Below the pieces are notes generated by a model, which was given only the letters and a program-made list of their open reading frames with translations, did no database searches and had not been told where the DNA came from. 64,000 nt of DNA from Heterotrichella gracilis (taxonomy: Eukaryota; Sar; Xanthophyceae; Tribonematales; Xanthonemataceae): the NCBI GenBank assembly GCA_032358255.1, contig JAULBX010022852.1, forward strand, positions 1 to 64,000. The letters are read 5' to 3'. This document shows positions 11,701-63,480 of this stretch, in pieces. Position numbers and translations under genes: made by a program. Positions within the stretch are counted from its first letter, which is position 1, and the number at the start of each line of letters is the position of its first letter.

Positions 11701-14700
11701 CGACGCAGCCAACCTGCGCGACCTGATGAACGGGCTGGCGCAGGAGCAGTTCAGCGAGGAGGAGCGCAGCGGTGGGAGGGCGGAGTGCCTGCCGGTGCAG
11801 TGGCGCAAGCAGCTGGACCTGGATGTAGGGCCTGAACCCTGAACTCTAAACCCTGAAGCAACTGGAACTGGACGTGAGGCCATGCACCCTAAATCCTGAA
11901 CCCTAAACCCTGAAGCAGCTGGACCTGGATGTGAGGCCCTGAACCCTAGAGTCTGTACCCTAAACCCTGAAGCAGCTGGGCCCGAATGGGATGCCCTGAG
12001 CCCTAGCTCCCAGATTGTTTCCATTCCCTTGAGCACCATACACTTGGGCGTCCATCCTCTCCCTAGTGCTGCAGTAACCCTCATACCTGCTCCCCCACTC
12101 CCAACCCTGCACTTTACCCAGCGGCTTGCCCTCTCCCACCCTCCCTCTCACCCCCTTGTCATTCCTCCCCACAGTTTGACCGGCTGTCCGCCTCCATCAT
12201 GCCAGCTGGCGTGCTGCCCTTCCGCCAGATCCTGCATGCCACAGCGGTGGAGGTGCTCCTGTACCTCACACCCACGCACCGCAAAGACATGCTGGACTCG
12301 CTGGCAGGCAGCGCCAACACCGTGTACAGGAAGTTCATGGAGCGCAACCCTGACTTTGCAGTGAGTGGGGTGGAGGGTGTGTGTGACCTGTGGCGAGGGT
12401 TATTTTAACTCGCCACAGGTGGGGGGTTCACATGGGGAGGGTGTTTTGTGTGGGTCTTGCTGGCTGGCAAGACATTGCGTTATGAGGGAGGGTGGCCACA
12501 CGTGAGGGGTTGGCGATGGGAGTGATGGGGTGTGCATGTGGCCACCGATTTAGGTGTGTTTACAATGAGCAGTGGTTGGCGTGGGGCCAGGGAATTTGCA
12601 TTTAGGATCGGCGAGGAATTTTGTGAATGGATATGCTGTGTTCAAACGCTACATATGAGGAGGCATCTTGGTGTGTTTTACCCTCTCCAGGGGTTTGAAC
12701 TGCCACCATTTACCACAGGGCAAAGTGCCCATCATCGTCCACTCGCGTGGGTCTGTGCTGTGCTACAAACTGCTGCTCAATCAGCCAACCAGCTTACCCT
12801 TGCAAATTCTAGGGTCAACCTGCCATCTTTCCGCAGGGTAAAGTGTCCATCATCGCCCACTCGCTTGGGTCTGTACTGTTCTACAACCTGCTCCTCAACC
12901 AGCCATCACCATACCCTTGCACACCCTAGGGTTTGACTGCCACCCTTTCTGCAGGGCAAAGTGTCCATCATCGCCCACTCGCTGGGCTCTGTGCTGTGCT
13001 ACGACCTCCTGCTCAACCAGCCGGCAGCTTACCAACACATACTAACACAGCAACAGGAGCAGCAGCAACAGGATAGGCCCCCATCAGCTGGCAAAGGCGG
13101 CAGCTTCCACAGCAGCAACCTGATTGACCTCCCCTCGGAGGGACAAGCAAGCATAGGACACCAGCAGCAGGCACAGAAGGATGACTCCCCCTTTGCTGTC
13201 AAGGGGGGTAGCCCTAGCTACCGCAACCTGATTGACCTGGCTGAGGGGGTGGATGGCGAGGGGCAGGGGGGGCCAGGTGGCGGCGCCATGGGGAGCTTGG
13301 CTGGGGCTGGGGTGGTTGATGGTGCGCCAGGTATGCAAGGGTGTGTGTGTGCGCATGCATGTGTGGTGTGGTGGATTGCGTGGAGGGAGGCTGCACAGGG
13401 TGCTGCATCATGGCGTTGCGTACACACCGTTCCAACACCTGTTGCATTGTGTCTCTGATGAGTGACCGCTGGTTCTGCAAACTCCTCGTCTTGAAGGGTT
13501 TGCTAGAAAATCAAGTAATGGTATCATCCTCATATCCAATATGCCCCCTATCATGTAGGGTCTGTGTAGTGCATTCAACTCAAAAGTTGCCGGTGTTATT
13601 GAACGAACCCCTTATCCCACAGGCACATCACCATCCACGCCCACAAGCTCTCCACCACCACCCATGCCTGCCCCGGAGGCCGCCCCCCTCCCCCCTTCAC
13701 CACCACCACCACCAGCCCCTGACACCGACCTCACATCCATCCTCACCCCCAATCCCACCCCCACCCCCAATCCCACCCCCACTGCCAGTGCCAATGCCAG
13801 TGCCACCAGGGCCCCGTCCCCCCCGCCCCCAATCCGTACGGGCATGTTTGGCCTGTTCCCCACCCGTGGGTTAAGATCGCTGTGGGGGCAGCCAAAACCG
13901 CAGCCAGAGGCACAGCCACCTGCAACAGAGGCTCTGCCGGAGGCGGAGGTGGCAAAGGATGTGGCTGCTGGTGGGGATGCGGCAGCGGCTGGTATTGGGA
14001 GTTTGGGACCGGCTGGTGGTGGGGATGCAGCAGGGGCTGGTGGTGGGGATGCTGAGGAGGAGGAGGAGGAGTTGCCATGGGAGTCTCCCCCCCTCGAGCT
14101 GCATTCTGAGCCATCCCTAGCAATGTATGCGCGAGGAGGCTCGGCAAACCAGGTGGACCAGGGACGCAAGCCGCAGGCATTGAGCTCGGGAGACCATGCC
14201 ACGGATGGTGCTGGTGTGGGGGATGGTAGTGGCGGTGGTGGTGGTGCTGTGGGTGGTGGTGGTGGGGGTGCAGAGGCTTCAGCGTCAGGGCAGCATCACC
14301 CAGCCGATGATGACCTCATCACCTTTGCAGTGCACCAGCCCCTCCCCAACGATAGCGACCCATTCACCCCTGGGGGACCGGATCAGGCAAACCGCCTCGC
14401 ACCCACAGTCGACTCTCGGGGTTTTAATGATCCATCCACATCCGCAGCCGCAGACCCCCAACCCAGCCCCTTTGGCGCTTCCTCCTCCCCTTTCCCCACT
14501 CAGCACACCTGGGGACCGCATGAGTCCCCAGAGGGCCCCTCTGCAGCAACCATGGCTGGGCTGCTGGAGGATCTGGATGCGCATCCCTTTTCGTCATCCC
14601 CACCTATGCAGCATCCCATCCCCAACAGCGCTGAAAAGCCCTCTGGGGATTGGGACCACGACCTCATGGTGTTTTCACCCCTGGAGAACCCGCACGTGCA

Positions 14701-17463
14701 GCCCGCCCCGTCCCCTTCCCTTGATCCTGCCTCTACCCCCTTGATGGAGCAGCTGGCAGCACTTAGGTCAGAAAACGAGCTGCTGAGGACGAGGCTGAGT
14801 GCTGCAAAATCTGAGGCGCACCTGCTGCATGCAGCCCTGGGTGGTGATGGGGAGGGGGCGCAGCTACGGGGGGATGGTGGGGGGGGTGGGGGTGCCCTGT
14901 CCCGGGGCGGCGTGGTTGGGGATGCAGGCGGTGTGGCGGGGATGCTGCAGGCGGTGGATGTCAAGCGACTGGATTTTGTGGTGGACAAGATGCTGGCTGT
15001 AGGTGGGTGCTGTTGGGGGTTGATGGCGGTTGTCAGTGATAGTAAACATTGGCAATCCAATCATTGTTTGGCTGTACTTTTGAACCCCACCAGTTTACGA
15101 TCATAAATCGCCATGCAAGGGGAAACCAGTCACTCTGGTCATCCCTTCATACCCCTACCCCCCACGTCACCTCCCTCCTATTCATTAATTCCCACCCCCA
15201 CCCCACCCCTGCAGGCTCCCCCCTTGGCTTGTTCCTTGCCCTGCGCGGCATCAACCCCGACAAGTCCTGCCCACTGGGTGCACCCGGCGCCGCCTCACTC
15301 ATGCCTGGCAGCTGCCTCAACCAGGATGGCCTGCCAGCTGTGCAGCGGCTGTACAACCTGTTCCACCCATTCGACCCGGTGTGCTACAGGTGGGTGTGCT
15401 GGGGCTGGGGTGTGGATGCTGGGTGGTGTGTGGGTGTTTGGGTGGACTAGGCCCTGCACTTGGTGTGTGTGGGGTTGGGCTACAAAAGATGAGGCACATG
15501 CTTCCAGCTAGTTTGAATTTAATTTCTGCAGTGGTCTGTGTGATGCAATACTCCCCCATGCAACACCCCACCCATGACATGCACGTTGCAGCCACTCCGC
15601 CACCTGAGAAAATCACCCTCTCTGACTCTTCTGCCGGCTGCCCCACCCCCCACACGCACGCACCCCCTCCCCCCAGGATCGAGCCCCTGATTTCCAGCCA
15701 ATCCCGCACCCAGCGCCCAGTATTTGTGCCCTACTACAAGGGGGGGCACCGATTCCACATAGGCATGCAGCGCTGGGGCGAGGACGCAAGTGCTGCGGTG
15801 GGGCGGCTGGGTCAGAGCTTGGTGGGTGCGCTGACGCTGCGGGGGGTGCGGGGGGTGGTGGCCAAGGAGGGGGGGTCGGAGCTGCTGGGGATGGCGGGGG
15901 AGCTGGAGGGAGAAGGTGGGTGGGGATGGGTGGTGGGGGCCGCCTGCATCCACAGAGTTGGCTTGCGTTATGCTGCGTTTTCTACATTGCCAATGAGATC
16001 ATCACATTGTGGAAATCCCTATAATATATTGCACTCCAAATAATTGTTTATGCAATTTGCATTGGTCTCTACACACCGGTGATCATCATTATCACTCTTT
16101 GAAACCCGCTGAATCTGCTGCTCAATTTTCGAGCGATGAGCATTTGCTTAGAAGTTGAGTGCTTTGGATCATGCGCCACATTGTCCATCATGCACCCTCT
16201 CCTTTGCTGCCAGGTGACGAGGGGAGCGATGGCGCCTCTGGGTGGGGGGACAGCCCACGGGTCGGGGGTGGGGGTACCAGCTCCACGCATGTGTGGCGGC
16301 TGACAGATGGTGTGGGGCACAAGGGGCAGAAGGGGGCGCGGGGGAGGATCGACTTTGTCATCCAGGTGAGGTTATGGGAAGCTAGGTGGTGCAAGCTGCG
16401 CGTGGGTGGCTGCTACACGGGTGGTACTGCTGCAACGCATGTCGTTGAGGGAGAGAGTTCAGAAAAAGCGGTTCGCATTGCCAGTTGCGCCCTGTGCGGC
16501 ACTGTGGCAGCATGCGTGGGTGCTTTTGGGTGGGGTGCTGTTGGACCCTTGGCATTTCCTATAATATTTACTGGGTGTGGCGTTGCTGGGATCGAGCATG
16601 TTTGCCCTGTCTAGTCACTTTCTCAATGGAATGGCATCACCCCATGTGCCCCGATCCACGCACAGTCGCACACACACCGCCCTTAACCTCCACCCCCCGC
16701 CTTCCTCAGGAAGCTCCCACCGAGACGGCCCTTTTCAGCACCCTCACATCCCACTTTTGCTACTGGACGCACCCCGATGTGGCGCTCTTCCTGCTGCGGG
16801 CTGTGCACGACCTGGATGTGGTCACAGGCACTGCGGTGGACCAAGAGCAGGTACATCGGTTTAGGGTTTTAGGGTTTAAAGTTTCAGGGTGTGGTCACAG
16901 ACACAGCAGTGGACCAAGAACAGGCACAGCACCTGCCCCCTGACTCGTTTGAGAACCCATTATATATTTTTAATTATCTCTAACACAATGAATAGGTAGT
17001 TTTACCCATTTTTAAATGGAGAAGGCTTATTGCTGATTTTATAAAGACGGTAAATTAAAATAGATTTTTCTTCCTGTTTTAATACTTTGTACATGAAGTG
17101 ATTGGAAAATGAAATAAACCCTGACAAAATGGTGCATGCAACAGTTAAGCTTAAGAATCAGAATTCATGGTTGGCTAATGTGCACAGCCCAGTGAACTTG
17201 ATTTTCGTCATGTACAGGCGTCGTTACAAGAGGGTTCGCAGACAGAGAGCGGGGGAGGAGAGAGCAAGCCCGTTGCGGTGGAGGGGAGGAGAGAGGGTGG
17301 GAGGCTGGGCCGGTCGCCTGGGTCGGCGGGGGGGCTGGGGAGCTCTGTGGGCAGTCCTGGGGGGGGGTTGCTAGGGGGTGGGGCGCAGGATTTCTCCCCC
17401 GAGAAAGGGGGCATTGTGGCGGATATGTTTGAGAAGCAGTGGCATGGCGCGGGGAGCTACTGA
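8718..17463 (+). CDS. SGR2: DDHD-domain phospholipase A1, SGR2-like
   Basis: Sixteen exons keep phase: 8718-8883, 8963-9050, 9259-9379, 9682-9858, 10247-10375, 10925-10998, 11329-11392, 11570-11824, 12175-12360, 12955-13330, 13623-15002, 15215-15389, 15677-15915, 16214-16365, 16710-16850, 17218-17463 (3969 nt, 1322 residues). It matches plant SHOOT GRAVITROPISM 2: RWYWY, YESLWWKEQAE, GGLYEVDL, RVLRGTWFVESGGHW, KLRRGYV, LVLVIHGVGQN, LPVQWRK, then the lipase motif IIAHSLGSV with nucleophile Ser429. The DDHD part has AVGSPLGLFLALRGI, FHPFDPVCYR, YYKGGHRFHIGMQ and CYWTHPDVALFLL. The family acts on phosphatidic acid at vacuolar and other endomembranes. Odd points: the lipase motif is AHSLG rather than GHSLG; a proline-, glycine- and alanine-rich insert of about 500 residues separates lipase and DDHD parts; the intron after exon 4 is GC-AG; the last 82 residues are low complexity and less certain. 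Confidence 0.92.
10095..10145. repeat. Perfect 19-bp inverted repeat in SGR2 intron 4
   Basis: Arms 10095-10113 and 10127-10145 are exact reverse complements (AAGGGTAATAAGATAATAA) around a 13-base loop. It lies inside the GC-AG intron at 9859-10246, so the pre-mRNA could fold here. No terminal duplication or transposase is seen; it may be a small MITE remnant or chance expansion of a TTA-rich tract. Confidence 0.6.
10497..10590. repeat. Imperfect CAT/CATCAG microsatellite
   Basis: A run of CATCATCAT, CATCAGCAT and CATTATCAT units in intron 5 of the SGR2-like gene. It reads as open protein on the minus strand (methionine-rich) but this is a by-product of the repeat. Confidence 0.8.
11850..11995 (+). 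repeat. Three decayed copies of SGR2 exon 8 end
   Basis: The exon end AAGCAGCTGGACCTGGAT|GT begins at 11807. Near-copies start at 11856, 11913 and 11970 (spacings 49, 57, 57). The first two retain GT after the exon-like part (GGACGTGAGG, GGATGTGAGG); the third has lost it. Between copies are telomere-like words such as CCCTAAACCCTG. All lie in the intron downstream of the true donor at 11825. Confidence 0.8.
12719..12954 (+). repeat. Two 118-bp copies of the SGR2 catalytic exon start
   Basis: The exon that carries the lipase nucleophile begins at 12955 after CTGCAG. Copies begin at 12719 after ACCACAG and at 12837 after CCGCAG, each exactly 118 bases apart. Each includes an intact-looking acceptor and about 78 bases of exon. 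Copy 1 reads HSRGS and copy 2 HSLGS at the catalytic site. Copy 2 runs into an in-frame TAG after PCTP; copy 1 stays open to the first codon of copy 2, where GGGTAA stops it. Neither copy has an obvious donor, so they look like decaying exon duplicates rather than alternative exons. Confidence 0.85.
16888..16923 (+). repeat. Copy of SGR2 exon 15 end inside intron 15
   Basis: The sequence GTGGTCACAGACACAGCAGTGGACCAAGAACAG copies the last 33 bases of exon 15 (ending at 16850) with a few substitutions. The donor GT has become GC in the copy. TTTAGGG-like words (TTAGGGTTTTAGGGTTT) separate the two. Confidence 0.75.
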
Positions 17464-34426: not shown

Positions 34427-37400
34427 TCACCTGGATCTGCTCCTGCTGCGCTGCCTTCTGGGCCTGTGGCAGGGAAACGTCGTCAGTACATGCTAAGCTC
34501 GCATATTTACCTGAATTTCACCCCCAGCCAACGGCCAGGATGCAGGGACCCTTCCGTACACATAATATGGGTAAAATGATGTTATCAGGCATGCTGACCT
34601 GGCTTTAAAGCTGGAAAGCAAATACTTAGTTACTTATCAGGCATGCTGTATATGCTGTATCAACCTCGTCACCGCTATTGGAGACCCATAGATGCGCATG
34701 GCCTGTGCACATTCCCCGGACAGTGACAATTGACGTCTGCCCACGCATCATGCAAACCCGATGGCATGACACCAACCCTTACCTGTCCCTTTCCCTGTCT
34801 CGATGCCGTTCCCGATCCCTGTCCCCTCCCCTCTCACGTTCCCTGTCGCGATCCCGTTCCCGCTCCTTGCCCCTCTCCCGGTCCCTGTCGCCATCCCTGT
34901 CCCTCTCCCGTTCCCTCCCCCTCTCCCTCTCTCTACTGCGACCCCCCTCCCTGTCCCTCTCCGTATCTCCATCCAAGTCCCTCTCCCTTACCCTCCCCTT
35001 TTCCCTCTCTCTGCTACGCCCCTCCTCCCTGTTCCTCTCCCGTTCCCGATCCCTGTTGCGGCCCCCCTCCCTCACCACCTCCACAGGCCGCGCCTGTGGG
35101 GGCGGTGGGGGCAGCGGGGGCGCGTCCCTCTGCCTCAAAATCTCCACCAGCTCCTTATTCTTCTCGTGGAGCTTCACCCAAGACCTGAGGGGGTGGCAAG
35201 AGAAATGACTTGAGGCTGAGGGTTGAGGCTCTGGTAAAGCTTCACAAAAAACTCGAGTGGGAGGCAAGGGAACACCTATCACTTTGGATGATTGCTGCCA
35301 CACCGCAGTCAACCATGAATGGCTGGGAAATGCAAGCTTCAACAACTCCACCAGATCCTTCTTCTCGTGGAGCTTTACCCAAAACCTGAGAAGGGGGTTG
35401 GAACGACCTAATATGGCATGTGAAAAATACTGACCCACCCCATACTGCACCCCCAGCCCTCCCCACCATCCCCATCCCCTTTACCATCTTCATCACCACC
35501 CACCCAGCATCCGTCCATGCAATTCCCTTCCCTCCTCCCTTGCCTCTCCCAACTGTGCCCACCAGAACGTCCTCCCCTACACATGCACCCTTTTCCCTCC
35601 CCTCCCTCCCCACCTGAAATTCCTCCCCTCCCTGTGGTCCTTCAGCCGCGTCTCGTCCCGGTTGATGATCAGGCCAGACAGCGGGCACACCTCCTGCATG
35701 CCAAACTTGTTGGCTTTGTCACCGGCGCGGTGCGCGGCCTCGCGCTCCAGGTGGGTCTTCTTGGCCTGCAAGCATCATTTTTTCATGTCATTATGCATGA
35801 AAAACGAAAAAGAAAGCAGCATTGCCATCAGCAGGTGTGCGGCTCCAGATCAGTCTTATTAGCGTGCATTGATTGGTACCTACTTCAGATTTTAAGGATA
35901 TGAATAAAACCAAATTGTTGGCTTTGTTATCAGCCCGTTGCACGGCATCGCGCTCCAGATGGGTCTTCTGGGACACAGCCTGCACACTTTTTACAAGGAG
36001 GGATTCCAACCCAAGCACCTACGCATACCCACTTCCGGTGTTCCCAACCCACCTTCATGGCATCCGCCTGCGTGGCTGCCAGCTGCGCCCCGTCAATGTC
36101 CCCTTGCTCGCCCAGCTGCTCGCTCTGCGCCAGCAGCTCGCGGATGTGCTCGTTCATCTTGTCGATCTTGAGCTGTGCATGGGAGGAGGAGGAGGGCAGC
36201 AGTCAGCAGCGGGTTGTAAAACGGTTTGGTAGGACCCCGCGGCATGGGCATGGGCATTGTGGTGAGGGTGTTCCAGTGCTTAATTTTCAGTGCGATCACA
36301 GCGGTCCCAAGAAACTACTTAAAGCCAAAGAGGGCGGTTGATGCTTGCAAGGGCATGGTGCTGGAAGTGTTTTGCAGGTAAAACAGAGACACAGCATCTG
36401 TGTCTCTGTAGTTGTGCAAGCAGCAGAATATGTTATTAATACAAGCATACCAGCAGCAAAGCCAGATCCGTAATCAGCCATGCACAAGCAGAAAATGTAT
36501 ACAGTTAAAAATACAGCGATACTAGTATACATATTTGTCTACTCTAAAAATTTCTCTTTGCAGCAGTCACAGTTTTAGGGTATATGTTGTAGGGCCCTGT
36601 GGGGTTCTGGGCCCACCTGGTCATCTGTGGTGATGGTCGGGTCCTCCGTCACTGCCAGCCACTAGTTTAGGGTTTAAATTAGGGTTTTGCACCCACCTGG
36701 TCGTCGGTGGTGATGGGCGGGTTCTCCGTCACCGCAAGCCGCTCAGAGTTCCTCTGGATGCGCTTCTGCAGGTCATCCACCATCCTGTCCAACCACCGCT
36801 TGAGGTCCCGCTCGTACCCGTAGCGCGCCTTGTCGGCGTCCGGGAGGGCCTCCCAGTCGGCCTTGCACTCGTCGTCGTGGTCAAAGGGGCAGGGCCCGTA
36901 GTCGTTCTTGGTGCGCTCAAACTCCTGGTAGGGGCAGAAGCCGCACAGGTGGTGCTTACACACGGCCTCCTCGGTGAAGCTGCGCCTTTTTCTGGGGGCC
37001 AGGGTGGAAATCAAAGGTAAGTACATAAGGGAATCATATAATTATAATTATAAATATTACACACCGCCTCCTCGGTGAAGCTGCGCCGCTTCCTGCAGGC
37101 CAGGGTGGACATCAAAGGTAAGTACATAAGGGATTTATATAATTATCATGCAAATAATGAAAATTGCATGCACACCGCCTCCTCCGTGAAGCTGCGCCGC
37201 TTCCTGGGAGGGGTGGGTGGTGGCGTGGGGATTGTGGGTGGTGTGATGGGGTTGTGCGGGGTGACTTATGTGCAGTGGGACAGGCATGGGAAAGGTTTAT
37301 CTATGGCAGACGCCCAGGTGGTGTCTGCTCCCGTCTCCTGTAATGTGATGCTGCGCCTTTTCCTGGGGTGCACGTCGGGAGGGTGGACGGTGGGGTGCGG

Positions 37401-38500: not shown

Positions 38501-41500
38501 ATGTGCAACTGGCAGTCAACCATGATAGGGCTCGGCATCGACCGGGTCCTGCCCCTGATGCTGGTTCCGGCGGCCGTGTTCAGCGTGCTGTGGTTGGTGT
38601 ATTGGGTACTGCTGGGGCAGCGTGTGCCCACCATCACAGTACTGTTTAGTGAGGGTGAGCATGTCCCCCCAATATGGTTAGCTCTTGTCTGCTGTGCAGC
38701 TATTGGGCTCCTGGCTCCAGCAGTTAACGTTCTATGTTTTCAGGCGATGAAGACGCTGAACAATATGACCCTGCCAGCAAAGCGCCAGCCGGGAAGATTC
38801 CCTGCTACAACCCGGGCAACAAGAAGTTCCTGGGCTATGTTCCAGCCATGACAGCAGATGAGGCAAGCAAAGGGTCGCTTTTCCACTCTAATGATCTCCT
38901 TGATTGTGCGGAATTCTCGGCCCAATAGCCACTAAGTGGTTGACAACTTGTGCTGCGGTCGCAGGTTAAGGAGCGCATCAGGAAAGCCTCTTTGGCAGCC
39001 GAGGTAGGGAGGCAGCCCCAGTGCATGTTATGCAACAGTTGCAACAACGCCATGTCACGTTGCACGGGGCGAAGGTGTTGGGCACTGCATTCCTATCATT
39101 TAATCATACCTTATTGACAAAAGGTGGTTTTGAGCACCTTGACTTCTTGCGGCACCAAGAACGCCGCAGTATGTGGTGCCACCGGGCCACCGTGGGAAGG
39201 AAACATATTTGTGCTTGTGCAGCAATGGAAGCATTCCAAATTCAGCCAGAGGAAGCTCCTACTCAAGGTCATTGCCAAGTTCATCGTCAACAACCAGGAG
39301 GATATCTGCAGGTACCCGCGTGTACCGCCAGCCTTTTTTGGCACATACTGTATCCCCCTCAACACTGCAGAATAACCAGCATGCTGCAAGGAAACATGTG
39401 TACCTTGAGCATGGATTGCAAAACATATCGCTGCGCAGAGGGCAGCACATACAGACTCCTGCAGGGCCTCAGCAATCTGTGAACCCTAAACCCTAAACCC
39501 TAAAAGACACTGCCCTCTGAGCACAACACACTGACTCGTGCAGGGCCTCAGCGATTGATTCCGGTAAGCCGGTTGTGGACGCAGCGTTTGGCGAGGTGAT
39601 TGTGACGTGCGAGAAGCTTTGGTGGCTCATCCGTGAGGGCGAGCAGTACCTGCAAACAGAGTACAGGTCTGCCGGACTCATGGTACGTGCCGGGTCCTCA
39701 CAACACATGACATGGAAAGGCATTTTATAATTTATACAATACTCACAATTTTTCCAGAAATCAATGGTTCAAAAACAATAAAGCTGTTACGTTCCATGCG
39801 GACATACAACGAGTCAATAAATCATTATATCTATGTCTTGGGCCAAGGCAGTGATCAGTCTGTTCACTTGATCATGTCACCAGCTCAACACAAGCTGTAC
39901 TGGTCACGTGCCGTAGAGCTGCGCACATCCCTGGGTAGCAAAGCGTGGTGATTGTTTCTCGGACGCGCAGAAGGTCCTTTTGGTAGCTTATCTAGACCAT
40001 GCCCCCCATCGCTGTCCCCTACCAAAGGGACCTCCTTTGATCCCGCCAGACAATTGCTACCCTCTGTTACCTGGTGATGTGTGTGGCAGTACGCCGCATG
40101 TCCAGCACAGCTTGTGTTGGTATGGCGACTTGATTAACTTTTGGCCTCTTGGGTCCATGTCATTCCCATGGGAGGAATTTTGCTCAGGAATATGCATCAA
40201 ATGCAAATGAAATCCTTCCACTTTTGGCAAGTAGCACCTCATTTGTACCTCTGTTCAGCTATTCACACGCTCACCCTGTCATCATCGATGGTGCTAATGG
40301 GCACCCGTTGGCCGCAGATGATGTACAAGGCGCCTCGAGTGGAGTACCACCCCCTGGGAGTGGTACGTGCTTACTGCGTGTGCCCCCGGCTCTGATTTAT
40401 TCCTGCATGCCTGTACCCCTGCATGTGGCAGGGGGGATTGCTGTGCGCATCTCACTGAGGCTTGGAGACCTCTCCTTCCTTGAATGCCCGATGATGGCAT
40501 TCGCATCGCTGCGGCTGACATCTTTTTGACGCATAAAGTCACAAGGGCTTTTTACATCAGTGTATCTGTTTTCGTGTGTATCTTTTCGTGGGCGCCTCGC
40601 CATGCTGCTGATTTGTTCGTAGATTCCAAACGCGCGGTGCATTCTTTGCGCAGGTTGGCGCCATCGTGCCCTGGAACTACCCCTTCCACAACATCTTCAA
40701 CCCCCTCAGCGCCGCGGTGTTTGCTGGCAACGCCATCGTCATCAAGGTGGGGGCCGCGATGAAGTGCACTGTGGCGCTGCACTGCCAGTAGCACACGGAT
40801 GGTGGCGAAGAATGCAGGGGGGGTTGTTGCAGCGGCGGCAAATGGCGCTGTGTATTCTAGGTGTACACCACGCTGATTGCGGCGTTCATGCTCTTCAAAT
40901 TCCACCAAGGCTTGTGTTGCGGTAGTCCCATTTATTTATGTAACAGGATTGAGGGAAAAGGAAAGTGGACACATTGATCCCTTACATGCACAGCCTTGAA
41001 GTATCTACGAATCCTTTTATCCATGCCACCCAAGGGCATTACAGCTTGACCCCATACATACCCAGCCACGCAACACCCTCCCCTCGCAGGTGTCAGAGCA
41101 CGCCTCCTGGTCCGCCACCTACTACGAGCAAATCATCAAGGCGGCGCTGGCGGCAGCAGGTGCGCGGCTTTAGGGTGTAATGTTTATGGTCCTGGTGCGC
41201 GGCTGTAGGGTGTCGATTTTAGGGTTTGGATGCGCTGCACAGCAGGGAATTCTAGTGCTGATGCTGGATGCAACATGGTATATATTCATGGACCACTGTG
41301 GCTAGGCGCTGTGCTGTGTGCACATACTATGAACGCATCATGCTGGGCAGCGTTGTGGTGTGGTTACTGTTAATCATCATTACGTCTAGTAACGGGAACA
41401 AAATTCAATCCAGACGGACCCCCACACTTCCCCCTAGGTGCCCCTCTTAACCTGGTGCAAATCATCCATGCTACGGCGAGGCGGGCCAGGCGCTAATCAA

Positions 41501-43562
41501 TTGCGGCGTGGCCAAGGTCACGTCTGTACTGCCCATGACCCACACCCGCGCCACACGCATTCAGCACCAATCTCTTGACAACTGCAAAACAGATTCACTG
41601 AAAAAAACCCTTTTCCCCTTCCCCCCAGGTGCCCCCCTTGACCTGGTCCAGATCATCCACGGCTATGGCGAGGCGGGCCAGGCGCTGGTCAACGGCGGGG
41701 TGGCCAAGGTCACGTTTGTTGGCTCCACGGCTGTCGGACGCAAGGTGCTGGAGGCTGCTGCTGTCACCCTCACGCCTGTGGTGCTTGAGCTGGGTGGCAA
41801 GGACCCCTTCATAGTGCTGGATGACGCGGACCTAAACCTGGTGAGGGGGAGGTGGAGTGGGTGGAAATGCCGCCAGGGTGAGTTGCAAACGGGTTGAGAA
41901 TGCGGAGGTTATGGTATATTGTTGTTTAGAAGGGGCTGTGCTGCGCTACTGCCTGTGCTTGCTCGTTGAGTCGCCACAGTGTGTTGCAAAAGGAGCACCA
42001 ATGCATTTCCTTTTCCTTGCAAATCTGCATCCGATGGGTTGGGAAAGTAGAGGGGAAAGTACTCCCACAGTAGGGTGAAGTCACCTTGTTTGGACTGCAC
42101 CGCGGCTCATCTCCATCGCGGTGCACACCACCCACAGTCCATAAAACACTCATCTCATATACATGAATATAATGGGTTTCCTCCTCCCTGGCAGGTGGTC
42201 CCCACCGCCCTGCGCGGCACCTACCAGGGCGCCGGCCAGAACTGCATGGGCGCGGAGCGCTTCCTGGTGCAGGCCAAGCTGCATGATGCATTTGTGGCGC
42301 AGGCGCTGGCCACCACGCGGCGCATGCGCCAGGGCGCGGGCTCCTCCCGGTCTGTGGTGGACATGGGGGCCTTGTGCATGCCCGGCCAGGTGGCGAAGCT
42401 GCAGGCGCTGGTGGAGGACGCGGTGGCCAAAGGGGCAACGGTGGGGATTGGCAGGGCGCACATGGGGTTTTGGTGTCGTGAAGTGACATGTATATTTTGT
42501 TGGCCTTCAGGGTCATGTGTATACGTGGTGGTCAAGGGGATGCAATACACACATGGAGCTATGGTTGTTGTTAACGTCATGTCGTTGTTCATTGGGTTTA
42601 TTCGCATGCATGGCCAGTCTTTTATGTATATATGTATATGGTCAAGATACAATATTTCATAATGAAATGATTCAGATTACTGGTGCCGCTTCTGCATGGT
42701 CCGACAATGCGCGGCGCCCCTCTCCATTGCTAACCACTCCACCCCCCACCCCACCCCCCACAGCTGCTGGTGGGTGGCAACCCAGACCCCTCCAGCCCCG
42801 GCCAGTTCTACCCCCCCACCATCCTCACCGGCGTCAGCAACACCATGCGCATCTGGCAGGAGGAGGTGTTTGGCCCCATCATGTGCATCACCTGCTTTGA
42901 CACCGACCAGCAGGCGGTGGCGCTGGCCAACGACTGCCCCTTTGGACTGGGGTCGAGCGTGTTCTCGGGGAGCAAAAGGAGGGCCAATGCGGTGGCGCAG
43001 CAGCTCAAGGTGGGTTGTAGGGTTTAGGGTTCGGGGTTGAGCGTATTGATGGGCGGCAAGAGGACGGCGAACGCTGCGGTGTTGCGGCTCAAGAATATCT
43101 ATATGGGTACATGATAACTATTTTCGACATGACTGATATTGGCAAGAAATTTCTGTACAAAAACTTCCAATAAATTTCCCTGTACATTGCCTTTTAATGA
43201 GCTTTTCTTCCTGTGGATTGTTGCAGGCTGGTGCCACCTCCATCAACGACTTTGGCGCCACCTACATGTGCCAGTCGCTGCCCTTTGGAGGGGTCAAGGA
43301 GAGCGGCTTCGACCGCTTCGCGGGCATCGAGGGCCTGCGGGGCATGTGCCTCCCCAAGGCGGTGTGCGAGGACCGCCTGTTCTTCAAAACCGCCATCCCC
43401 CCCCTGCTCCAGTACCCCGTCAGCGACAAGGCCTTTGCGTTTGTGTCCGCCCTGGTGGCCATGTTTTACTCCCCTGGGTGGCTGGGGAATGCCAAGGGGC
43501 TGGTCAGGCTGCTCAAGGTGATGGTGCTGCCGGCCAAGAAGGGGGGTGAGAAGCAGCATTGA
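38501..43562 (+). CDS. ALDH22A1: ALDH22-type aldehyde dehydrogenase, membrane-anchored
   Basis: Twelve exons keep phase: 38501-38654, 38744-38862, 38965-39003, 39223-39311, 39544-39682, 40318-40362, 40654-40746, 41090-41159, 41629-41840, 42195-42440, 42764-43009, 43227-43562 (1788 nt, 595 residues; the Arabidopsis protein is about 596). It oxidises aldehydes with NAD(P)+. An N-terminal hydrophobic helix (about 15-38) matches the anchor of plant ALDH22A1. Signature strings: [45 protein letters not shown] with the general base Glu, [10 protein letters not shown] with catalytic Cys337, [31 protein letters not shown] and [12 protein letters not shown]. The intron after exon 2 is GC-AG (GAG|GCAAGC). 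Several introns and the 3' flank hold exon-edge duplicates. Physiological substrate is unknown. Confidence 0.95.
39459..39505 (+). repeat. Copy of ALDH exon 5 start plus telomere-like run
   Basis: CTCCTGCAGGGCCTCAGCAA at 39459 copies the acceptor and first bases of exon 5 (CTCGTGCAGGGCCTCAGCGA at 39535). Immediately after it is CCCTAAACCCTAAACCCT (39484-39501), the longest telomere-like run in the window. The offset is about 76 bases. Confidence 0.75.
41438..41530 (+). repeat. Decayed copy of ALDH exon 9 start
   Basis: After CCCCTAG at 41437 the sequence GTGCCCCTCTTAACCTGGTG and onward to GTGGCCAAGGTCACG copies the first 90 bases of exon 9 (true start 41629), offset 191 bases. A one-base loss shifts the frame within the copy. 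A fainter copy of exon 8 (ACATACTATGAACGCATCAT against ACCTACTACGAGCAAATCAT) lies at about 41321-41340. Confidence 0.8.
43030..43095 (+). repeat. Copy of ALDH exon 11 end in intron 11
   Basis: GGGGTTGAGCGTATTGATGG and onward to GGCGGCTCAAG-like sequence at 43091 resembles the last 65 bases of exon 11 (ending at 43009) with many changes. GTAGGGTTTAGGGTTCGGGG links exon and copy. Confidence 0.65.
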
Positions 43563-44838: not shown

Positions 44839-46306
44839 ATGGCCAGCAGCAGCAGCAGCAGCCCAGCCCAGCTGTACAAACAGACCCCCATCCACTCCCT
44901 CCCAGACGACCTGCTGCAGCGCATCCTACGAGGAGTACCATTCCAGGACTACTGTGGTAATAATTCTCGCTACAAAGCAGAGCTGCCGCTGGTGTGCAAG
45001 GCCTGGCGCAGGGCGCTCTCGGGCCCAAGTGCGGCGTGGCCACACATGGTGCAGCGCAACTCCAGCAAGTCTTTCCTGGACTGGCTGTGCCCCAGGCTGG
45101 CAGCAAGCAAGTCCCTCGAAAACCTGCATGGCACCCCAGAGGACAAGCTGCGGGTGCTCAACAGCCTCAACCCGTCTTGTCTTACTGTCCTCACTCAGTA
45201 CAGAGCTGCAGATAACTATGGAGATGGGGGCTGTGTCGGGCAGCTGCTTGAGGCCACTTTCCGCCTCACCTCCCTGCGCTCCTTGCAGCTCAACATGCCC
45301 TGCACTCCGGAGCAGTTGGCGCCCTGCCTGCCAGCCATGGCAGCCCTGGTCAACCTGGAGGGCCTGAATCTTGACTTCAGAAATCCTCAGCCCAACACCC
45401 GTCAAGGGTGGCCGGTGCTCCCTTGCCTTCCAAAGCTTTCCAGTGCAACACTCGTGGTACATGGGGAAGAGGTTGTCTCGATGCTGGCCAACCAGTCTGC
45501 ATTGACCAGCTTGCATGTCCTTGGAGGAAGGTATGTGGATGATGAAGTGAGTTTCGGCACCTCCATGCGCCCGCTCACCCAACTGAAGATGCTGGAGGTG
45601 GATTGCTGCTGGCTGGTGTTCCCGCCTGGTTGCTTCCCCACCTCACTTGAAGAGCTTACCACTCACGACAGTCAATCGGAGGTTGATGCCATGGCCCTTC
45701 TCCCCAACCTCGTGCACCTGACGTCACTTGTAGTTGATGGTGTACAGCGCTTGACCCCTGCACTGGCCAGCCTCACCAACCTCCAGGAGCTGATTGTCTG
45801 CGATCTGGTGGAGCCGCTGGTGCTGCCAGTCATGCCCAACCTCACGCTGCTCTCGGCACTGGATGTGCACAGCGTACAGCTGCAGGTGCCCGAAACTCTG
45901 AAACCCTAAACCCTACATTGGTGCTCAAGATAAGACCATGCGTGCAGCTGCAGGTGCCCAAAACTTTGAAACCCTACACCCTACATTGGTGCGCAGGATA
46001 AAACCATGCGTGCTGCTGCAGGTGCCCATAAACCCCAAGCTGTGGTTGTCGCAGTGGGCGGGGGAGCCACTCGAGGAGCCAGCACCGCGCGATGGCGTGA
46101 TTAGCATCAAGGGGCGGCACGGCATGTACAGCATGGGCGTGGATGCAGACAACTGTGTTGTGGTCAGCATGTCCCAGCGCCTGCCCCCTGATGGCGGGAC
46201 TCCATTTCATGCTGAATGGGCGCGTGAGGCAAGGGGGGAGTGGGAGCAATGCGTCGGGTGGCTGCACACCGCCGCAGCATCATGCGCACAGAGTGAACGT
46301 GAGTGA
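44839..46306 (+). CDS. F-box protein, tandem paralogue A, with paralogue-specific intron
   Basis: Two exons, 44839-45885 and 46022-46306 (1332 nt, 443 residues). The F-box is PIHSLPDDLLQRILRGVPF followed by LPLVCKAWRRAL at about residues 15-60; the rest is a leucine-rich-repeat-like region (NLEGLNLDF, LTSLVVDGV, LASLTNLQELIV). F-box proteins usually bring targets to SCF ubiquitin ligases; the target is unknown. Reading without splicing gives a stop at 45909. The sister gene at 50133 is uninterrupted at this point and continues with VPINPKL, exactly as exon 2 does here. Removing 45886-46021 restores phase 0 and full length (453 residues in the sister). The intron is made of two 68-bp repeat units. 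The start matches the MASSSS starts of the sisters. Confidence 0.85.
45880..46021 (+). repeat. Two 68-bp units forming a nascent intron
   Basis: CTGCAGGTGCC occurs at 45880, 45948 and 46016, exactly 68 bases apart. Between occurrences lie AAACCCTAAACCCTACATTG (unit 1) and AAACCCTACACCCTACATTG (unit 2), then GATAAGACCATGCGT or GATAAAACCATGCGT. Because each junction contains CAG|GT, the first copy offers a donor and the last an acceptor. The intron 45886-46021 is 136 bases, exactly two units. Confidence 0.9.
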
Positions 46307-47644: not shown

Positions 47645-49110
47645 ATGGTCAGTAGCAGCAGCAGCCCAGTGGTGCAAGCACAGCGGTGCAAACTCACCCC
47701 CATCCACTCCCTCCCTGATGACCTGCTGCAGCGCATTTTTGGTGAGCTACCCTTCCACTGGGAGACAAATACCTTTCCTTTCAAGAAGCATTACAAAGCA
47801 GAGCTGCAGCTGGTGTGTAAGGGCTGGCACAGGGCTCTCTCGGGCCCAAGTGTGGCGTGGGCAGACGTGAGTTGCCGACCATGCTCCGACCCTGGTCGTT
47901 TCTGGACTGGCTGTGCCCCAAGCTGGCAGCAACCAAGTCCCTCCAATATCTTGGGGGCGAGCCAGAGGACATGTTGCGGGTGCTTAACAACCTCAGCCCA
48001 TCCTGCCTCACTACTCTCACACAGTATGGGCGTACTGCCTGGTCCAAGCATGCATACCGCGGAGACCTTTTTGGGCAGCTGCTTGAGGCCACCTTCTGCC
48101 TCACCTCTCTGTCGTCCTTGCAGCTGCAATTGTGCTGCATGCCGGAGCAGTTGGCGTCCTGCCTGCCAGCCATGACAGCTCTGGTCAACCTGGAGAGGCT
48201 GGAGCTTGGTGTCAGGGATCCAGACAACGGTGCCCAGCAAGGGTGGCCACAGCTTGCATGCCTTCCAAAACTGTCCAGCGTAATTTTCACAGCAAACGGG
48301 GAAGAAGATGTCCTAATGCTGGGCAACCAGTCTGCATTGACCAGCTTGTACGTCAACGAAGGTTTATATCCAGACGGGGGACCCTCCTTCGGCACCTGCA
48401 TGAGGCAGCTCACTCAGCTGAAGAGCTTGGAGGTGTGTTGCTGCCGCAAGATTTTGTCGCCTGGCTGCTTCCCCACCTCACTGCAAAGGCTTACCATCGA
48501 GTGGGACGCGCAGTGGGGTCAGGAGGTTGATACCATGGGGCTCCTCCCGGAGCTGGTCCACCTAACATCACTTGTTCTGGGGGGTGAAGGCATGCAGGGG
48601 GGGAGGGTCACCCTGCTAGGGTTGACCCCTGCCCTGGCGAGCCTCACCAACCTCCAGGAGCTGAGCATGGCCTGTTTTGCGGAGCTAGTGGTGCTTCCGG
48701 TCATGCCCAGCCTCAAGCTGCTGACGGTATGGGAAATGGACGGCGTGCAACTGCTGGGGCCCATCAACACCGGGCTGCGCGTGTCGCAGTGGGCCAGGAG
48801 ACCGGATTTAGTGCCACATGATGGTGTGCTCAGCATTGTGGGGCACCATGGCATGTACACCTTGGGTGTGGATGAAGATGACTGCGTTGTGGTGGGTATG
48901 TCACAGCGCATGCCCCCTGGTGATGCTTCGCCTTCCGCTGATTGGGCGCTTGAGGCAAGCAGGGAGTTGCAGCAATGCACTGCGCACCGCTGCAGCATCG
49001 CGCTTACACTAGTATTGTGGACAGATTTTTCCGCCGAGAGTGACAAGTACACTGGCAATGTGGCGGCACACCGCCGCAGCATCAGCGCACAGAGTGGACA
49101 TGACTGTTGA
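47645..49110 (+). pseudogene. F-box paralogue B, frameshifted
   Basis: It begins MVSSSSSPVV with F-box PIHSLPDDLLQRIFGELPF and runs in frame to SGPSVAWADVSCR. Between about 47870 and 47905 the sequence is 13 bases shorter than paralogue C, so the rest (FLDWLCPKLAATKSLQYLGG to the end) lies in another frame that stays open to 49110. No splice pair restores the frame. Apart from this, similarity to paralogue C is high over the whole length, and the end differs: after LQQC it reads TAHRCSIALTL rather than IGWLRTAAAS. It may be a recent pseudogene, or a shorter protein could start at the ATG at 47881. A sequencing error is possible. Confidence 0.7.
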
Positions 49111-50132: not shown

Positions 50133-51494
50133 ATGGCCAGCAGCAGCAGCACCCCAGCAGTGAAACCCCAGCGGTGCAAACAGACCCCCATCCACTCCCT
50201 CCCAGACGACCTGCTGCAGCGCATCTTAGGGGAGCTACCCTTCCACTGGGAGAAAAGCCCGGGTAGAAAGCAGTATAAAGCAGAGCTGCAGCTGGTGTGC
50301 AAGGGCTGGCACAGGGCTCTCTCGGGCCCAAGTGTGGCGTGGGCAGACGTGAGTTGCCGGAAAAGCTGCCTTCCTCGTGCTGATAGCAAGCCATTTCTGG
50401 ACTGGCTGTGCCCCAAGCTGGCAGCAACCAAGTCTCTCGAATGTTTGGGAGGCGAGCCAGAGGACATGTTGCGGGTGCTCAACAACCTCAGCCCATCTTG
50501 CCTCACTACTCTCGCACAGTATGGGCGTATTGCCTACTCCAAATATGAAATCCACGGGGACTGTTTCGGGCAGCTGCTTGAGGCCACCTTCCGCCTCACC
50601 TCCCTGTCGTCCTTGCAGCTGCAACTATGCTGCACTCCGGAGCAGTTGGCGCCCTGCCTGCCAGCCATGGCAGCCCTGGTCAACCTGGAGAGGCTACAGC
50701 TTGGTGTTAGGCATCCAGACAATGGTACCCAGCATGTGTTGCCACAGCTTCCATGCCTTCCAAAACTCTCCAGCGCAACATTCACGGGGCTGGGGGAGCA
50801 CAACCTCTCAATGCTGGCCCACCAGTCAGCGCTGACCAGCCTGCATGTCAACGAAGGGTGCTATGCAGACGGGACAGGCTCCTTCGGCACCTGCTTGAGG
50901 CAGCTCACTCAGCTGAAGAGCTTGCAGGTGGAGTGCTACCGCACGACCATGCCGCCTGGCTGCTTCCCCACCTCGCTACAAGAGCTTCACATCCAGTGGG
51001 ACGAGGAGTGGGGCCAGGATGTTGATGCCGTGGGACTTCTCTCAGACCTTGTGCACCTCACGTCGCTTGTGCAGGAGGGCGATCGCCTACGGGGCCTAGG
51101 CTCTGCCTTGGCCAGCCTCACCAACCTCCAGGGGCTGAGGGTCGCCTGCGTGGCGGAGCCGCTGGTGCTGCCACTCATGCCTAGCCTCACATCGCTCTCG
51201 GTTTGGGAAATGCGCAGTGTGCAACTGCTGGTGCCCATCAACCCCAAGCTGCGCGTGACGCAGTGGGCCAGTATACCATACTTAGTCCCACAGGACGGGG
51301 TCATTAGCATTGTGGGGCAGCACGGCCTGTACACCATGGACGTGGATGAAGATGACTGTGTTGTGGTGGGTATGTCACAGCCCGTGCTCCCTGGCGATGC
51401 CCCGCCTTCTGCTGATTGGGCGCTTGAGGCGAGCAGGGAGTGGCAGCAGTGCATTGGGTGGCTGCGGACCGCTGCAGCATCACGCGTGCAATAG
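50133..51494 (+). CDS. F-box protein, tandem paralogue C
   Basis: Single exon, 1362 nt, 453 residues. F-box at about residues 18-65 (PIHSLPDDLLQRILGELPF, ELQLVCKGWHRALSGPSVAW). The body has leucine-rich spacing: FLDWLCPKLAATKSL, LTSLSSLQLQL, LPAMAALVNLERLQLG, LTSLHVNEG, LTQLKSLQVE, LASLTNLQGLRV. The C-terminal 110 residues (VPINPKLRVTQWA, DGVISIVGQHGLYTMDVDEDDCVVVGMSQ) are shared by all three copies and may form a small beta domain. The protein probably recognises a substrate for an SCF E3 ligase; target unknown. It is the intact reference for judging the intron in paralogue A and the frameshift in paralogue B. The start is the ATG aligned with the sisters. Confidence 0.85.
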   Translation: MASSSSTPAVKPQRCKQTPIHSLPDDLLQRILGELPFHWEKSPGRKQYKAELQLVCKGWHRALSGPSVAWADVSCRKSCLPRADSKPFLDWLCPKLAATKSLECLGGEPEDMLRVLNNLSPSCLTTLAQYGRIAYSKYEIHGDCFGQLLEATFRLTSLSSLQLQLCCTPEQLAPCLPAMAALVNLERLQLGVRHPDNGTQHVLPQLPCLPKLSSATFTGLGEHNLSMLAHQSALTSLHVNEGCYADGTGSFGTCLRQLTQLKSLQVECYRTTMPPGCFPTSLQELHIQWDEEWGQDVDAVGLLSDLVHLTSLVQEGDRLRGLGSALASLTNLQGLRVACVAEPLVLPLMPSLTSLSVWEMRSVQLLVPINPKLRVTQWASIPYLVPQDGVISIVGQHGLYTMDVDEDDCVVVGMSQPVLPGDAPPSADWALEASREWQQCIGWLRTAAASRVQ

Positions 51495-60885: not shown

Positions 60886-63480
60886 TCAACTGCCTGCGGG
60901 GAGCTGCTTCTGTGCGGCCTTGACCATCATGAGCACAAACAGGATTGAGAAGAAGTGCGCCATGATGGTGTTGCTGGCGGCCTGCGGGAGGGTTTAGGGT
61001 TTAGAGATCAGAGTTTGCAGCACCACCGATACCATCATCAGCGATACCAACGTCAAGCACCAGAGACCATATCATGCCTCATGTGAGTCCTAACATGGTG
61101 CCACACTTTGCACCACGTGATGCACCATCTGCTGTCCCCAAACCATCTCCTAATGCCCCACATGCACTGTACATGATCCAGCTCGATCCCTGCGCATGGG
61201 GTCACGCAACCACGCCCAAGGCTCACCTGCACTCCGAAGATGTCCAGGGCCACCGGCGGTAGGGATCCCCCGGCTGTGTAAGGGTTTGCGGTGGAACTGG
61301 AGAGGGTTTTGGCAACCAGGCCGCCCACAGTGGCCTGCACAGGAGGAAGTTGCACGTTCCCAACAGCACAAGTTTGAACCCTATACTAGCATGTGATGAA
61401 GGTACGTACAGTGACAGTGACATGCTGTCAATAAGCACGCACGCACATACAACACTTCCCATGCCTCCTCAATCCCAGGCCCGCTGTGCATGGAGGAGAT
61501 CCCCACATGTGCAAAGCCTCCTGCTGCACACTACACCCCCTCTCCCAAAACCCAAAAAAAACTGCCCCCCACCTGCAGTCCCAGGATTGCGCATCCCATC
61601 CACAGCAGGTTGAGCTGCAGGTTGCGCAGCAGGTAGGACTCAAGGGACTGGCGACCCGCCTTGCCCTCCTTGCGCATCTTGCGGGCAATCCTGGATGCAA
61701 ACGGGGTGGGAGTGGGCGTGATCAGGTCGCAAATTCAAAGGGAGGAGATCATGATCAGGTTGACATCCAGGGGAGGGCACTCACTAGCTTTCACCGCTGC
61801 AACCTCAAGTAGAGGGTGGCCTGATCAGGCTGCGTCATTGCTGCCACTCATATATTTGCAAGGTATAGACAAGGCATCAGCAACGCAATGATATTGCACC
61901 CTTGCCATTCAGCAACGGGCAGGAGTCTGACCGCCTTCTACCGCCCCATGCCCAGTCACCCTCACCCACCTGGGGTATGTCCATGCGATGAATGTGCTGA
62001 TGAAGGACGCAGCCACGCCAGCGATGGGGAAGGCTGCCAGGACCGCGGTGGCCGCCCCACGCTGCACATCAATGAGGATTGGTGTTCATGATTTGGAATT
62101 CACGGTTTGAGATCATGTTTTCATGGTTTCATGGTTTCATATTTGCAGTGCAATGACAAATGCTGTATGTATGGGTGGTGCAGTGGTGCTTCGACCTTCC
62201 AGTGCCTCTGCATTGTCAAAGAAAATCCACCGCTCAAACACACTCGATAGCGCAAGCTTGAACCCTGATCCCTAAAACCCAACCCCCGAATTCTTACACA
62301 CTGTACGCCAGGTTAAAACCCTAACCCGTAAGCCCCAGACCCTCCAGCGCCCCACACCTGCAGCGCCGATGAGAAGAAGAACACCACCGCCGACACGATG
62401 GACAGCACCAGCTCAGAACCCTCAACCCTAAACCCTGACACAGGACAGCGCCAGCTTCGGAACCCTAAACCCTAACACCCACACCTGCAGCGCCGATGAG
62501 AAGAAGAACACCACCGCAGACACGATTGACAGCACCAGCTGCGCCCAGAAGCTGATCCACCCTATGCGGGACAGGTTGTTGCTCAGGCGGATCACGCCGG
62601 GGGGGGTGGGCTCGGCGCCGGATGGGATGAACACCCCGGAGGCGTAGGGGAGGTCTGCGGGAGGCGCGAACGTTGGCATGCGGGAGTGTGTTGTTGTTTT
62701 GGTGCAGCGGCGGGCGTTTATTTATGACCATCGTACTGTTATTTTGGCTACACATGCTCACATGATGTGGTTAAGTAGTGCATGGATGCACCATTGGATT
62801 GCCTTGTCGATGGCTTGTCGTTGAAGCATTTGGTGGAGCAGATATACTGTAACGTTTAGCCATCACCACTCTCTTGTTGGGGTGAGTGAGGGGTGCAAAG
62901 TGCAGGTGGGATGCTGTGGGAGAGGTGGTACATAAACCAAATCCATACTGGACCCTACCTGGTGTGGTTCCTGACTTAGCTTGAGCTGCAACCTGAAGCA
63001 CAGAACAACGCAAGTGATTATGTTCCCAGCATCAGGTGTACACTTGGATGCCAGAGATGTATGAGATGGCATGGTGCACAATATGCATGCATGCACAAAT
63101 TGCTTGTGCACACACCAGCGCTGCGCACGCACTTCGCATCGAGGAAGGGGCAACAACATTGCATCTAGCCATCGACACTGCCTGCCAGAGGTTTGTGCGT
63201 ACAAGCGAGGCCTCTACCAGAGTGGGTTTACGTGCACATCAGTTGCATGCATGCATCTACATGTCCCTAAACACACCTTGATGCACACCCGCCTGGGCGT
63301 GGAACGCGCGATGCCGGCTTGCCACGTGCTGGTTCGCTTGGAGGGCACGCTGCCGAGCTGTGGCGTGCAGGGCGCGGCCCTGTAACAGCCGTGGTGGCCT
63401 GTGGGCGTAGCACTCCGAGATGGCTGTGCTCCTCCAAGAGCGCTGCTGCCAAGTGGCTTCGCAGCCTGCATCGTGAGCAT
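60886..63480 (-). CDS. DUF3611 family membrane protein, chloroplast-targeted
   Basis: Seven exons in transcription order: 63480-63289, 62992-62959, 62654-62485, 62061-61970, 61690-61573, 61334-61227, 60981-60886 (810 nt, 270 codons, 269 residues). DUF3611 proteins occur in cyanobacteria and plastids; their function is unknown. The first 64 residues (MLTMQAAKPLGSSALGG, rich in Ser, Ala, Arg and poor in acids, ending STPRR|VAAQAK) form a convincing chloroplast transit peptide. The mature part has four likely membrane helices: RIGWISFWAQLVLSIVSAVV, FPIAGVAASFISTFIAWTYP, LLWMGCAILGLQATVGGLVA and NTIMAHFFSILFVLMMV. IARKMRKE after helix 2, the LVAKTL motif and LDIFGVQAASNT are family hallmarks. The first methionine (63480) or the one three codons later could be used. 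Intron 3 and the 3' flank hold duplicated exon ends. Confidence 0.88.
62359..62416 (-). repeat. Copy of DUF3611 exon 3 end in intron 3
   Basis: CACCTGCAGCGCCGATGAGA through GACAGCACCAGCTC at 62356-62413 repeats the last 55 bases of exon 3 and its donor (true copy from 62482) almost perfectly, 126 bases away. Between them are CAACCCTAAACCCTGACAC and AACCCTAAACCCTAACACCC. Confidence 0.9.

Follow-up and report, generated by a model that had tools for sequence, protein, structure and literature searches.

The origin of introns is still debated, and fresh cases whose history can be traced are few. The closest described systems fall into three groups. A review (PMC3443670) describes introns gained when an exonic segment bearing AGGT is duplicated in tandem in the genome. 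In Daphnia pulex, direct repeats attributed to staggered breaks are reported for 55 of 90 new introns, and parallel gains at one position are common, at 43 of 90 (PMC4202315). In mammals, telomere repeats, sometimes with extra bases, have been inserted at double-strand breaks and have sometimes duplicated the target (PMC2246262, PMC7215372). In the horse, 3 of 66 cases showed duplication alone and 2 of 66 duplication together with other changes, while 3 more were complex, with inversions; duplication was seen in 6 of 130 cases in rodents and 4 of 25 in primates, and none of the human cases is in an exon. Intron birth by AGGT duplication or by staggered-break repair, and telomere insertion at breaks, are known as separate processes; a search of the open-licence literature, judged by titles and the starts of abstracts, found no paper that combines telomeric filler with intron gain.

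The window, i.e., the whole 64,000-nt stretch of DNA analysed here, is contig C229 of a genome of 68.5 Mb in 903 contigs. It includes a gene for an F-box/LRR-like protein (gene A) with an insertion that is real, young, and specific to this gene. Splice boundaries are marked by a slash.

44839 to 45885, plus strand: gene A, first coding part, F-box/LRR-like protein, codons 1-349 (open reading frame).
45886 to 46021, plus strand: 136-nt candidate intron of gene A, CAG/GTGCCC...CTGCTGCAG/GTGCCC (missing from paralogues B and C; removal restores a 443-aa frame).
45886 to 45953, plus strand: 68-nt unit 1 of the insert (61/68 identical to unit 2).
45954 to 46021, plus strand: 68-nt unit 2 of the insert (61/68 identical to unit 1).
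46022 to 46306, plus strand: gene A, second coding part (open frame after removal).

The F-box-like match in A (PF12937) has an E-value of 1.6e-4 and 21.8 bits, below the curated cut-off of 24.3 bits, and no homologue of A was found in the protein collection at E <= 0.001 among 7,993 scored candidates. The initial annotation had placed CTGCAGGTGCC at 45880, 45948, and 46016, so that 45886-46021 would comprise 136 nt in two units of 68 nt. We found the same three copies at the same spacing. TRF reported an array at 45872-46033 with a score of 259 (reporting minimum 50), and 45872-45963 matched 45940-46031 at 90% identity in this locus (L004). The claims about the reading frame held as well: with both units removed, the frame is open for 443 aa, and with the insert kept it meets a TAA stop at 45907. 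Taking out a single unit still leaves an early stop (364 or 356 aa). The insert has GT...AG ends and can be removed exactly in frame, AGGT is duplicated at both of its ends, and the 136-nt intron was the best-scoring model against paralogue C.

The two sister genes lie downstream of A in the window.

47645 to 49110, plus strand: paralogue B, uninterrupted at the codon of the insert, with frame breaks of its own (alignment).
50133 to 51494, plus strand: paralogue C, intact single-exon open reading frame without the insert (alignment).

The alignment of the three paralogues proposed in the initial annotation was performed, and both sisters were indeed uninterrupted at this codon; the distance of 5.3 kb given for one of them was right, while the other starts about 2.8 kb away rather than 2.5 kb. 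Since the frame of B is itself broken, close to the beginning of the gene and, through an 8-nt deletion, towards its end, A is best compared with the intact C; B may be a pseudogene.

Searching the genome at the protein level yielded 105 matches to the F-box/LRR-like family, many of them gene pieces, and most of the 105 were taken in as family loci. The family is large, and many of its members have a single exon; a number of members are broken by apparent simple frame breaks. Codon 349 of A was uninterrupted in 54 scored members, i.e., B, C, and 52 others, all of them paralogues rather than orthologues and one of them, in L044, poorly aligned at the codon. Truncated or indel-adjacent members, such as L034, L037, L041, L043, L045, and L051, were unscorable there. 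Among the members scorable there, only A and the distant member L023 (C277:17378) are interrupted, both exactly at this codon. The candidate intron of L023 is 169 nt long (locus positions ~2593-2761), sits at the same CAG/GT codon as that of A, and is AT-rich, with zero telomeric 7-mers. A tree of 60 members built with FastTree placed A as sister to B+C and L023 as sister to the uninterrupted L006. Since the sister of L023 is uninterrupted, two independent gains at the same CAG/GT are the simplest reading; a single ancestral intron would call for many losses.

Within each repeat unit of A, an exon-derived piece and a filler can be told apart.

45872 to 45891, plus strand: ~20-nt exon-derived repeat GCGTRCAGCTGCAGGTGCCC, left copy (sequence and alignments with B and C).
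45940 to 45959 and 46008 to 46027, plus strand: further copies of the ~20-nt exon-derived repeat (in the one at 46008, the seventh base is T instead of A).
45901 to 45915, plus strand: telomere-type block of unit 1, containing the TAA at 45907-45909 (CCCTAAA, the repeat of the contig-start arrays).
45969 to 45976, plus strand: decayed telomere-type block of unit 2.
45916 to 45939, plus strand: non-telomeric 24 nt of the filler in unit 1, repeated in unit 2 at 45984-46007 and otherwise absent from the genome.

Arrays of CCCTAAA, 42 nt long, lie no more than 10 bases from the starts of contigs C70, C140, C526, C609, C717, and C770, and TTTAGGG is therefore the telomere repeat of this genome. The filler of unit 1 carries the telomere-type AAACCCTAAACCCTA near its start. 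Thus, the telomere-like filler that the initial annotation had noticed consists in part of the genome's own telomere repeat. Its account of an intron born by duplication of an AGGT segment stands as regards a recent, gene-specific gain with AG/GT at both ends, but not as regards the unit as a duplicated exon segment: only ~20 of the 68 nt are exon-derived, and the remaining 48 nt are filler with no counterpart in B or C in the alignment. As with interstitial telomeric sequences, the filler of A carries the organism's own telomere repeat and empty paralogous sites exist; as with introns attributed to staggered breaks, a direct repeat flanks novel filler and the site is empty in the sister gene. 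The filler of A (45911-45920) and that of a C99 member, L048 (about 5460-5475), have the 9-mer CCTACATTG in common.

This anatomy suggests an origin in two steps. In the first, a staggered double-strand break at GCGTGCAGCTGCAGGTGCCC would have been repaired with telomere-containing filler, which would have doubled the ~20-nt target and left one copy on each side of the filler. In the second, the resulting 68-nt unit would have been doubled in tandem. Considering that units 1 and 2 differ at 7 of 68 positions, against a dS of 0.48-0.54 between A and C, the doubling of the unit postdates the A/C split. Since the duplicated target contains CAGGT, each copy gives both an acceptor (CAG/) and a donor (/GT), and the insert is therefore exactly removable as an intron with the protein kept, as far as the frame shows and provided that splicing takes place. 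Judged from the sequence, we give slightly better than even credence to break repair with telomeric filler and later doubling of the unit as the origin of a spliceable insertion in A.

Twelve interruptions were modelled in 11 genes chosen from the split members of the family; a thirteenth, short gap (L034) gave no model. At least four telomeric 7-mers were present in 6 of the 12 best-scoring models (A, L048b, L046, the second in L050, L034, and L049a) and, for L051, in a lower-ranked option only. There were none in L023, L048a, L040, and the first interruption of L050, and one in L049b. In L048b (C99, ~82.9 kb), an insert that is missing from its sister consists of a duplicated exon stretch and degenerate telomere repeats; the homologous splice option fell outside the frame filter and was judged by eye to be frame-inconsistent. 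L034 (C12, ~88 kb) has a 20-nt, mostly telomeric exon insertion at 2067-2086 on the minus strand relative to its sister L020, with no clear flanking duplication and next to a poorly aligned stretch. Further split points, read as short pieces, had telomeric inserts in 0 of 10 cases. At 5220-5560, L049 carries an insert that resembles a MITE: its ends are inverted (GTAAATGGACCGT...ACGGTCCATTTAC), two copies of GTAAATGG flank it, and it may form a 271-nt intron.

The insert of A is a candidate that is probably an intron, as its ends and the restored frame suggest. The alternative that survives best holds that it is an unspliced telomere-filled repair scar and that A is a recent pseudogene or encodes a truncated protein of 356 aa. 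This view draws on the weak donor of A, GTGCCC, which scores 1.25, the median being 3.49 among the eight donors of the ALDH gene described below, from which the score was built; one of those eight, GTACCC, scores below it (0.60), and among all GT in the window GTGCCC stands at the 87th percentile. It also draws on the branch site, neither CTRAY nor YTNAY being found within the 136 nt, on the apparent simple frame breaks in some family members, and on the short telomeric insertion in an exon of the C12 member. However, a scar does not account well for an exact CAG/GT at both ends together with in-frame removal, and the second part of A shows no loosened constraint: dN/dS against C is 0.45 after the insert and 0.54 before it, and thus not raised downstream, and before the gene end only two indels, of 6 and 3 nt, separate A from C. 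Because a simulated neutral exon stayed stop-free by chance in more than half of cases at 5% change and in a third at 10%, the stop-free second part of A argues only weakly for function. On balance, we regard an unspliced scar as rather unlikely.

The 18-mer CCCTAAACCCTAAACCCT occurs 1,889 times in the 68.5 Mb, and its reversed control does not occur. The first 40 merged places of this 18-mer, in contig order and not as a random draw, were taken as a sample. Up to 200 nt on each side were compared with telomere-like letters masked, and a site passed if it scored over 25, the 99th percentile of 1,560 mismatched pairs. Results showed duplicated flanks at 13 of 40 telomere sites versus 1 of 20 control loci, which lay 3 kb away from sites 1 to 20 (another of these controls scored exactly 25), and the flank test detected no duplication at the other 27 of 40. 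Random positions in family loci passed in 73 of 2,210 cases (3.3%; Fisher 8e-10 against 13/40). At a stricter score of at least 36, 9 of 40 sites, 32 of 2,210 random positions, and 1 of 36 family clusters passed. The family loci had not been selected for their telomere repeats; of the 36 telomere clusters in them, 5 passed (p = 0.007), and these lay in four loci, including A. Within the window, 13 of 35 clusters, forming 11 arrays, passed their threshold, versus 11.7% of random window positions. Judged by the sample of 40 sites, telomere filler has repeatedly appeared in this genome together with a flanking duplication. Since the same arrangement recurs, the telomere-like filler looks like the key feature of the insert in A.

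The duplicated copies on either side of the telomere filler were 13 to 63 nt long, as in the following sites of the window.

62351 to 62540, minus strand: 63-nt duplication with telomere filler at 62424-62475, ready-made CTGCAG/GTGTGG on the minus strand, 127-nt period.
16820 to 16928, plus strand: 36-nt duplication with TTTAGGG filler, ready-made GAGCAG/GTACAT ... GAACAG/GCACAG, 73-nt period.
36612 to 36743, minus strand: 52 nt duplicated around TTTAGGG filler, with a period of 80 nt and a ready-made minus-strand pair.

Two other tandem arrays were seen in the window: at 12698-13033, a 118-nt unit repeated 2.8 times consists of an intron end, an exon piece (GKVSIIAHSLG-like), and CCCTAGGGT filler, and at 36956-37206, an exon-like piece, a GTAAGT donor, and AT-rich sequence together make up a unit of 101 nt, present in 2.4 copies.

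The 13 sampled sites and 11 in the window, A included, gave a set of 24 junctions. A ready-made pair, i.e., GT in the left copy and AG in the right copy at the same position, with either strand counted, was present in 15 of 24. Random segments had a mean of 8 (95% range 4-12), under a criterion slightly stricter for the random segments. AGGT, on either strand, occurred in the left copy at 16 of 24 junctions and in either copy at 18 of 24; the figure for adjacent segments was 16 of 48. Within genes, the surviving insertions would be those in which AGGT or an existing acceptor is duplicated. An open-frame test across the junctions, covering 17 possible removals at 15 sites, gave no separation between cases and controls (median of the controls, 86 codons).

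A telomerase-polarity rule, by which G-rich filler touches the left copy and C-rich filler the right, found no support over the 24 junctions, since 11 agreed, 11 disagreed (A among them), and 2 tied, with some of these assignments hinging on differences of 1-3 nt. Because polarity is evenly split, telomeric DNA capture or a later rearrangement is as likely as synthesis on a broken end. A register preference of the telomere blocks was also rejected as confounded, many sites having been picked by the 18-mer. On DNA not chosen for telomeres, the phase of block ends was uneven for blocks of at least 13 nt (n = 24, p = 0.015), at least 11 nt (n = 37, p = 0.03), and at least 9 nt (n = 72, p below 1 in 3,000), and that of block starts was uneven only for the shortest class (p = 0.25, 0.38, and 0.001, respectively). 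In the window and the family loci, TTTAGGG blocks stop after GGGT, GGGTT, or GGGTTT above expectation. The uneven block ends may reflect TTTTAGGG slips and were therefore set aside as evidence. Non-telomeric sequence common to the flanks of 51 blocks amounted to little beyond degenerate repeats, and no 6-mer was present in more than 7 of the 51.

The window also contains an ALDH22A1-like gene, at about 39.2-43.4 kb, whose protein shares 72% identity with its Chlorella sorokiniana counterpart over 447 aa; Micractinium, Chlorella vulgaris, and Coccomyxa provided other top matches. By this single protein, the source resembles a trebouxiophyte green alga; a RuBisCO search gave no match. Its nine exons and eight introns were placed by eye and by open frame. 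The joined protein has 2 gap positions relative to C. sorokiniana, neither of them at a junction, although one lies seven residues past the seventh, and from this alignment the introns are very probably removed. Duplicated copies were found in three of them.

39312 to 39543, plus strand: intron with a duplicated acceptor region, 39447-39476 resembling 39526-39555 (the second copy runs into the exon), and telomere repeats at 39482-39504 between the copies.
41160 to 41628, plus strand: intron in which 41436-41527 is a decayed duplicate of the beginning of the following exon (41627-41719), 86% identical.
43010 to 43226, plus strand: intron with a copy (43033-43093) of the end of the preceding exon (42949-43009), 72% identical, and TTTAGGG repeats at 43018-43031 between the copies.

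Telomere repeats therefore lie between duplicated copies in 2 of the 8 introns, 39312-39543 and 43010-43226. In the intron at 41160-41628, the TTTAGGG-type blocks (41169-41176 and 41218-41227) are inside the intron and outside the copy interval. A fourth copy comparison among these introns found nothing, and the remaining introns had no cluster of at least three telomeric 7-mers.

An insertion of telomere repeats could have come first, with replication slippage then duplicating the neighbourhood. The telomeric insertion of L034 relative to L020, which lacks a clear duplication, agrees with this order of events, as does the doubling of the A unit after the telomere repeats were already present. 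Many of the sampled cases, however, consist of two single flank copies around the telomere repeats, which fits one repair event, and we consider slippage after insertion improbable.

Still less probable is that the 68-nt units of A are a plain tandem duplication of exon sequence. Two tandem units with AGGT at their edges would be expected from such a duplication, and the non-telomeric 24 nt of unit 1 marginally match the 71 nt upstream of the repeat in A (p = 0.04). The unit 2 copy gave p = 0.35 in the same comparison, though, and both copies were at chance level against the whole upstream CDS of A (p = 0.23 and 0.91, respectively); against the 73 nt downstream the values were 0.74 and 0.40. 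Moreover, 48 of the 68 nt are without a source in B or C. Telomere-filled repair duplication describes the insert better than plain exon duplication does. Finally, a mobile intron-like element (introner or MITE) that brought telomere-like sequence and duplicated its target is hardly credible, for although a direct repeat flanks the insert of A, L049 holds a MITE-like insert with its GTAAATGG repeat, and the 9-mer is common to the fillers of A and L048b, the non-telomeric 24 nt have no copy genome-wide beyond the two units at up to 3 mismatches, a 201-nt query matched exons only, the excess of CCCTACATTG (160 genome occurrences versus 62 for the reversed control) could be explained by CCCTA-rich telomere repeats alone, and duplicated lengths of 13 to 63 nt are unlike a fixed target duplication.

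For gene A, a single gene family, dozens of whose members are uninterrupted at the codon concerned, lets one read the empty site, the duplication of the target, the filler, and the doubling that followed. Part of the filler has a recognisable source, the telomere repeats, which thus provide a searchable tag for candidate young introns. These findings may point to a DNA-repair route by which new introns arise. A wider reading, that telomeric filler with flank duplication in break repair is a standing genome-wide source of new spliceosomal introns, is put forward tentatively, as a possibility that falls short of an even chance. Under this reading, telomeric filler tends to bring stop codons, so that the survivors in exons would be the copies that duplicate a proto-splice site; if true, telomere biology and intron birth would be linked, and telomere repeats could serve to locate young introns.

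Compared with the system described in PMC3443670, the donor and acceptor of A would likewise come from two copies of one AGGT, and the coding sequence is unchanged after removal. Unlike in that system, the unit of A is mostly new telomere-containing filler rather than exon, and no word in the main text of that review begins with 'telomer'. The direct repeats of A, and the gains at the same position in A and L023, resemble those described for Daphnia pulex (PMC4202315), whereas the filler here is telomeric, and 'telomer' and 'filler' each occur 0 times in the main text of that report. With the mammalian interstitial telomeric sequences (PMC2246262, PMC7215372), our sites have in common telomere repeats at a presumed break, with target duplication occurring here too; the 13 of 40 sites were obtained by a similarity test and not from empty orthologous sites, so that the rates are not strictly comparable. 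Some of the telomere-filled sites in this genome lie within genes, and their copies bear splice sites.
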